Shown: piece after piece, positions 59,871 to 59,977 of the stretch
How the letters are laid out: each line of letters opens with the position of its first letter
Position numbering within the stretch: the first letter of the stretch is position 1
Assembly (NCBI RefSeq): GCF_013181195.1
Contig: NZ_SMZP01000010.1
Span: 124,001-188,000, forward strand
Reading direction: 5' to 3'
DNA length: 64,000 bases
From: Caulobacter sp. RHG1
Lineage (GTDB): Bacteria; Pseudomonadota; Alphaproteobacteria; Caulobacterales; Caulobacteraceae
Notes under the pieces: generated by a model
The model's input: only the letters and a program-made list of their open reading frames with translations
What the model was told of the DNA's origin: nothing
Databases searched by the model: none
Translations under genes and position numbers: made by a program

Positions 59871-59977
59871 GACGAGCCCCTTTTCTTGAAAAGGTGGGGT
59901 CGTCCCCGGGATAACAGCTGTTGCGAGCGGCGGAGAGGCCGCCAAAAGCAAAAGGCGCGGGGGTCGTCCCCCGCGCC
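59871..59977 (-). promoter_or_regulatory. Guanidine-II (mini-ykkC) riboswitch
   Basis: On the minus strand there are two hairpins with identical ACGA loops. P1 (59954-59977) is GGCGCGGGGG-ACGA-CCCCCGCGCC, and P2 (59896-59907) is GGGG-ACGA-CCCC. Paired ACGR-loop hairpins are the defining feature of the guanidine-II class. They are separated by 46 nt that contain a further GGCGG/CCGCC hairpin and the palindrome AACAGCTGTT. Downstream of P2, CCTTTT can pair with the AAAAGG that overlaps the RBS, suggesting translational control. The next gene is a SugE/Gdx exporter, as expected. Confidence 0.88.

Follow-up and report, generated by a model that had tools for sequence, protein, structure and literature searches.

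A very probable guanidine-II riboswitch with a long linker upstream of a SugE/Gdx-type SMR gene in Caulobacter sp. RHG1

Introduction

Guanidine-II (mini-ykkC) riboswitches are built from two hairpins whose ACGA loops each bind one guanidinium ion, and these hairpins kiss. In Rfam the class is modelled as RF01068, i.e., two hairpins with ACGR loops and G-C closing pairs before a sugE/SMR gene. For the linker between the hairpins, the available part of PMC7544219 gives a range of 7-40 nt, which is descriptive and not a requirement. In Pseudomonas aeruginosa, the accessible portion of PMC9561414 describes translational control by hiding of the Shine-Dalgarno sequence, with a P0 helix between the flanks and an anti-Shine-Dalgarno in the 5' flank and linker; it also states that, until then, direct biochemical evidence for the guanidine-II switching step had been missing. 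In the E. coli sugE leader, the anti-Shine-Dalgarno is placed in the linker (PMC9094411, available text), and Rho-dependent premature termination is reported (PMC7815308, available text). The excerpt of PMC3766115 gives 67 mini-ykkC sites over its genomes and has Caulobacterales among its lineages, so the group was covered by earlier surveys. On the protein side, the closest described system is Gdx-Clo (SugE, PDB 6WK5), with the ion-holding or binding residues E13, W16, S42 and W62 and a GXG fulcrum, according to PMC9574504.

Here, we describe a leader on the minus strand of the window (i.e., the whole 64,000-nucleotide stretch of DNA that was analysed), which is very probably a guanidine-II (mini-ykkC) riboswitch turning on a guanidinium exporter. 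Like the members of RF01068, it presents two ACGR-loop hairpins with G-C closing pairs before an SMR gene; unlike them, it has a 46-nt linker containing a third hairpin, scores under the gathering threshold, carries a terminator-like tail on its first hairpin (P1), and is predicted to mask the start with its second hairpin (P2) itself. The control that we propose would be translational, as in P. aeruginosa, whereas the predicted partner of the start region is here the loop and arms of P2 rather than an anti-Shine-Dalgarno in the 5' flank and linker. The leader shares its class and target gene with E. coli sugE, from which it differs in its linker, unrelated in sequence by reading. Among the papers listed in searches of an open-licence library, none describes it in its title or abstract opening. 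It is ordinary in kind, well supported and slightly unusual in build: a new copy of a known class.

Results

Architecture of the leader

The leader lies between an upstream open frame and the SMR gene, both read in the same direction, and comprises the following features:

60883-60020, minus strand: upstream co-directional open frame, listed with 287 aa, ending 40-43 nt before P1
59977-59954, minus strand: P1 hairpin, GGCGCGGGGG-ACGA-CCCCCGCGCC, 10-bp GC stem and ACGA loop (from the sequence and a partial RF01068 match)
59953-59908, minus strand: linker from P1 to P2, exactly 46 nt (from the sequence)
59943-59929, minus strand: third hairpin, in the linker, GGCGG-CCTCT-CCGCC, without an ACGR loop
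59922-59913, minus strand: palindrome in the linker, AACAGCTGTT, 10 bp (from the sequence)
59907-59896, minus strand: P2 hairpin, GGGG-ACGA-CCCC, 4 bp (from the sequence)
59894-59879, minus strand: CCTTTT-CAAG-AAAAGG hairpin (folding prediction) covering the Shine-Dalgarno, with CCTTTT at 59894-59889
59884-59877, minus strand: Shine-Dalgarno-like AAAAGGGG, 6 nt before the start, putative in its role
59876-59868, minus strand: CTCGTC and the GTG start codon (59870-59868), complementary to the P2 loop and 3' arm (GACGA / ACGAC)
59870-59550, minus strand: SMR-family gene of the SugE/Gdx subtype, 106 aa, GTG start

The sequence-only reading had described two hairpins with identical ACGA loops and GC-rich stems upstream of a GTG-started SMR gene, and this description, coordinates included, proved correct. 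Both direct reading and a script check found the ACGA loops of P1 and P2 closed by G-C pairs, and they likewise bore out the 46-nt linker with its third hairpin and 10-bp palindrome. We asked how readily such a pair arises by chance by shuffling the 149 nt from the upstream stop codon to the GTG with dinucleotides preserved: 0 of 100,000 shuffles contained a pair of ACGR hairpins with stems of 4 bp or more, and 670 contained a single one. The bare octamer pair (GGACGRCC-N30-60-GGACGRCC) occurs at 6 places in the 5.63-Mb own genome, and the reversed control pattern at 54. The bare pair is thus common enough, and the specificity is carried by the paired arms together with the position before an SMR gene.

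As for the linker, it was also considered as a genomic repeat, an idea that was rejected: a second copy is absent from the own genome (next match, E 1.06). The third hairpin was similarly rejected as a conserved extra domain, as it was not seen in the linkers of the relatives compared, including those of intermediate length (L012, L023, L167 and L168). Both the third hairpin and the palindrome look lineage-specific.

Conservation and covariation among relatives

Homologues of the SMR protein (E<=1e-10) were found in 131 of 199 genomes of the family, and 70 leaders were compared, 30 at loci returned by the homologue search and 40 at further places chosen by hand. Where protein identity was at least 70%, two GGACGRCC octamers were present in 30 of 36 leaders (the window included), the remaining six dividing into three with one octamer and a changed P1 and three without any; among more distant leaders, 1 of 34 had two octamers. 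Among the 30 two-octamer leaders besides the window, 28 have their octamers 20-26 nt apart; the distance is 38 nt in L012, 36 nt in L023 and 56 nt in the window. In line with the earlier remark that the linker is longer than usual, 46 nt also falls outside the 7-40 nt found in the available part of PMC7544219.

The stems themselves show compensatory change. Across 28 of the 30 two-octamer relatives (window excluded; L012 and L023 dropped for length), both sides of the pair had changed at 11 of 15 stem pairs, and the resulting covariation score was reached in 0 of 500 shuffles. The loops and inner pairs are constant in this set because its rows were chosen for having the octamers.

Several leaders of the same family carry decayed loops, i.e., GCGA and CAGG in L013 and ATGA in the P1 of L038, while L041 and L044 have no octamer. 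In two others (L025 and L028), P2 is separated from the start by ~55-60 additional nt, which include an inverted-repeat-like insert (gcgttttcttcacgcga...gaaaacgc).

Assignment to the guanidine-II class

When the window was searched with Rfam at the gathering threshold, no match was returned. In a permissive search, RF01068 (Guanidine-II) was the best family over the leader, with 29.2 bits and an E value of 0.00028 (261-nt search). The sequence-only reading had held that a guanidine-II covariance score under threshold would speak against it, and formally the leader does fall short (29.2 bits against 32), the cut-off being an annotation threshold and not a structural feature of the class. Within the own genome, the leader was the best of 13 RF01068 matches (next, 18.3 bits), with none of them over the cut-off in this one genome. 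Both controls, Caulobacter vibrioides and E. coli, were over it.

Scores across the genus account for the shortfall. Of 75 genomes of the genus, 40 hold a covariance match over the RF01068 cut-off and 43 hold one at E<=0.01, counted whatever gene stands behind it. The scores drop with linker length, from ~50-56 bits for short linkers to 29.2 here; four genomes with longer linkers are still over the cut-off (G203, 39.6; G126, 39.5; G202, 39.1; and G138, 36.1 bits). Because scores in the genus fall with the linker and so many of its genomes exceed the cut-off, we regard the leader as a class member just missed by the Rfam model. A model built from the relatives with the window excluded (R1) gave 42.8 bits on the window (E 7.8e-9). 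Both models align the third hairpin as P2, since it stands at the usual distance from P1, and their scores therefore rest mainly on P1; the true P2 by itself yields 16.2 bits (Rfam) and 13.6 bits (R1). The second R1 match in the own genome (27.8 bits, E 0.003, at C12:138513) is a T-tailed hairpin without an ACGR loop followed by one ggggacgcccc, and was taken as chance. In practical terms, it is the linker that makes automatic annotation miss this leader, and copies with long linkers are lost at the Rfam cut-off.

The exporter gene

The 106-aa protein matches Pfam PF00893 (Small Multidrug Resistance) and passes the NCBIfam SugE profile PRK11431 (144.5 bits, cut-off 126), all other SMR models remaining under their cut-offs. 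Its closest solved chain is PDB 6wk5 (E 6e-35), aligned end to end, and like that protein, Gdx-Clo, it has the catalytic and binding residues, i.e., E13, W16, S42 and W62, along with G64-I-G66. It also has Y59, which we take to be the tyrosine switch of Gdx-type SMR proteins. The gene stands alone, its neighbour on the far side being on the opposite strand. That the target is a SugE/Gdx-type exporter gene, as first proposed, is upheld by the profile, the nearest structure and the residues in place; judging from its sequence, the protein probably expels guanidinium, a toxic small molecule. With the hairpins, the compensatory changes and the genus-wide scores, this gene identity supports the reading of the locus as a guanidine-II leader with its exporter.

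A predicted switch between P2 and the start region

In order to see how the leader might control initiation, we examined its predicted folds. P1 was present in every low-energy structure of the window leader, and P2 was opened: its loop and arms were paired to GGGG, to codons 2-4 and, across the start codon, to G-U-C-G-U. Forcing P2 to form cost 2.0 (long fragment), 4.7 (ensemble) or 5.9 kcal/mol (short fragment).

The same analysis was applied to 31 of the 36 leaders with at least 70% identity, those without an octamer (L013, L041 and L044) or with a long tail (L025 and L028) being dropped. The leaders were grouped, after the results were seen, into the 19 closest same-genus ones and the rest. 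In 17 of the 19, the alternative P2/start fold was preferred by no less than 3.7 kcal/mol, and the refolding appeared in 0 of the 12 others, three of them from the same genus. For each of the 17, no more than 8% of shuffled tails matched this preference; the count of P2-start pairs, taken by itself, stood out less, with 0 to 29% of shuffles as high.

We then compared the cost of opening the Shine-Dalgarno and start region with and without P1 and P2 imposed, in 28 leaders (L038, L040 and L042, with one octamer, were also dropped). Among the 19, the mean fell from 13.3 to 8.3 kcal/mol and the cost was lower in 17; among the 9 others, it was lower in 2, with means of 8.7 and 9.2 kcal/mol. In the window, opening both elements went from 14.0 to 9.4 kcal/mol, and opening the Shine-Dalgarno alone from 9.9 to 8.3 kcal/mol, a small drop because the CCTTTT/AAAAGG hairpin stays when P2 is imposed. 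This hairpin had been suggested to hide the ribosome-binding site when guanidine is absent. It is indeed predicted to cover the Shine-Dalgarno, but in both states, which makes the larger P2/start refolding the better switch candidate.

We thus infer the following course of events from folding and from the behaviour of the class. Without guanidinium, P1 would already be folded while P2 would refold into a longer hairpin with the Shine-Dalgarno and start region, and initiation would be poor, the start region being paired with P2. With guanidinium, each ACGA loop would, by analogy with the class, bind one ion and P1 and P2 would kiss; kissing would hold P2 in its own hairpin, release the start region and allow the exporter to be made. 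Given that P2 is predicted to refold with the ribosome-binding and start region, its formation should ease initiation. If this competition is right, the leader is a very short, easily tested translational switch.

P1, the upstream gene and alternative explanations

P1 is also terminator-like, since it is followed by TTTTGCTTTT. With its stem counted as 59979-59952, it is one of 3 such sites in 1.4 kb, where 0.7 (sd 0.8) would be expected. The upstream open frame (287 aa) had no Pfam or NCBIfam match; in all 21 close two-octamer leaders, P1 is preceded at 32-65 nt by the end of a co-directional open frame, and 17 of these 21 have at least 4 T within 8 nt after P1, versus 3 of 10 more distant leaders. 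Given its U-rich tail and its place close behind the upstream gene, P1 may end the transcripts of that gene too. A sigma-70 promoter scan of the locus found none. By eye, close relatives have a TATCTA-like motif immediately ahead of P1, of which the window shows a weak version (TTCTATGCAAG).

A tentative picture, to which we give rather less than an even chance, is that of a riboswitch compacted in this lineage: P1 would double as the terminator of the upstream gene, the promoter of the exporter would lie between the stop codon and P1, and P2 would itself serve as the expression platform, pairing with the start region through its ligand-binding loop, such that ligand binding and release of the start are one event and neither a separate anti-Shine-Dalgarno nor a P0 helix is used. 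A hairpin shared by riboswitch and upstream terminator would be a neat double use.

The terminator-like tail could also mean that this guanidine-II riboswitch works mainly by ending transcription early, through Rho or a hairpin, and not on initiation, much as the E. coli sugE leader of the same class has a Rho-dependent 3' end 76 nt after its transcription start (PMC7815308). We consider this unlikely, since the 10-bp GC stem of P1 should form without ligand, and termination via a stabilised P1 would have the wrong sign for an exporter, as expression would fall when guanidine rises; in addition, most of the 10 leaders that are more distant do not show the T-rich tail, and the class is called exclusively translational in the accessible portion of PMC9561414.

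It is quite improbable that the leader is instead a decaying copy whose function was lost through its long linker. The linker does lie beyond the published range (PMC7544219, available part), and degenerate leaders without octamers exist in the genus (L013, L041 and L044), yet the window keeps the loops and stems of both hairpins intact, along with the CTCGTC start context, and the genomes with intermediate linkers (G126, G138, G202 and G203) stay over the Rfam cut-off. Finally, we give hardly any credence to the notion that there is no riboswitch at all, with P1 serving solely as intrinsic terminator for the upstream gene and P2 having arisen by chance: P1 with TTTTGCTTTT does score as terminator-like ~40 nt past the upstream stop codon, and the T-rich tail does follow P1 in 17 of 21 close leaders, but a terminator has no need of an ACGA loop, 30 of 36 leaders carry the two loops, which are kept also where the tail is missing (it is present in 3 of 10 distant leaders), and two such hairpins arose in none of the 100,000 shuffles.

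Other putative guanidine-type leaders in relatives

Apart from the leader preferred here as a guanidine-II riboswitch, some SMR genes of relatives are preceded by a variant leader, with a P2-like CCGGG-ACGG-CCCGG hairpin and a first hairpin of the GAGG-CCACGT-CCTC type, i.e., with a hexaloop (L049, L061, L062, L065, L071, L073, L074, L075, L078, L183, L185, L217, L218, L219 and L220); the loop of the first hairpin is AACGA in L066 and CAACGA in L226. Rfam gave no match at E<=0.5 on 11 variant-leader loci. Covariation in the first stem of the variant is modest, with 4 pairs changed on both sides, a number that 20 of 500 shuffles also gave, and its P2 never varies. The variant may be a guanidine-II subtype whose P1 has changed.

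Of 299 family genomes, 69 contain the pattern GAGGCCACGTCCTC (reversed control, 14), not always beside SMR genes. A variant-leader model found 11 of 385 class genomes at E<=0.001, the strongest (G678, G313 and G624) being outside the family and two of them having been used in the model. A class-wide search with the variant pattern hit 55 of 385 genomes, mostly chance by look, the reversed control giving as many or more, and was set aside. One variant copy lies upstream of an ATP synthase A chain gene (L217:3488-3538, minus strand), in a stretch whose eight longest open frames listed include no SMR gene.

Two further kinds of leader were seen. At L171 / L217 (G201:C1, ~2422000), a cation/proton exchanger gene rather than an SMR gene directly follows a guanidine-II match whose 38 bits exceed the cut-off; the exchanger matches Pfam Na_Ca_ex and is ChaA-like, below the NCBIfam cut-offs. 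In another genome of the same family, a Guanidine-III riboswitch over its cut-off (56.1 bits) precedes an SMR gene (L047), and the leaders L048, L052, L055 and L057-L060 resemble it by eye.
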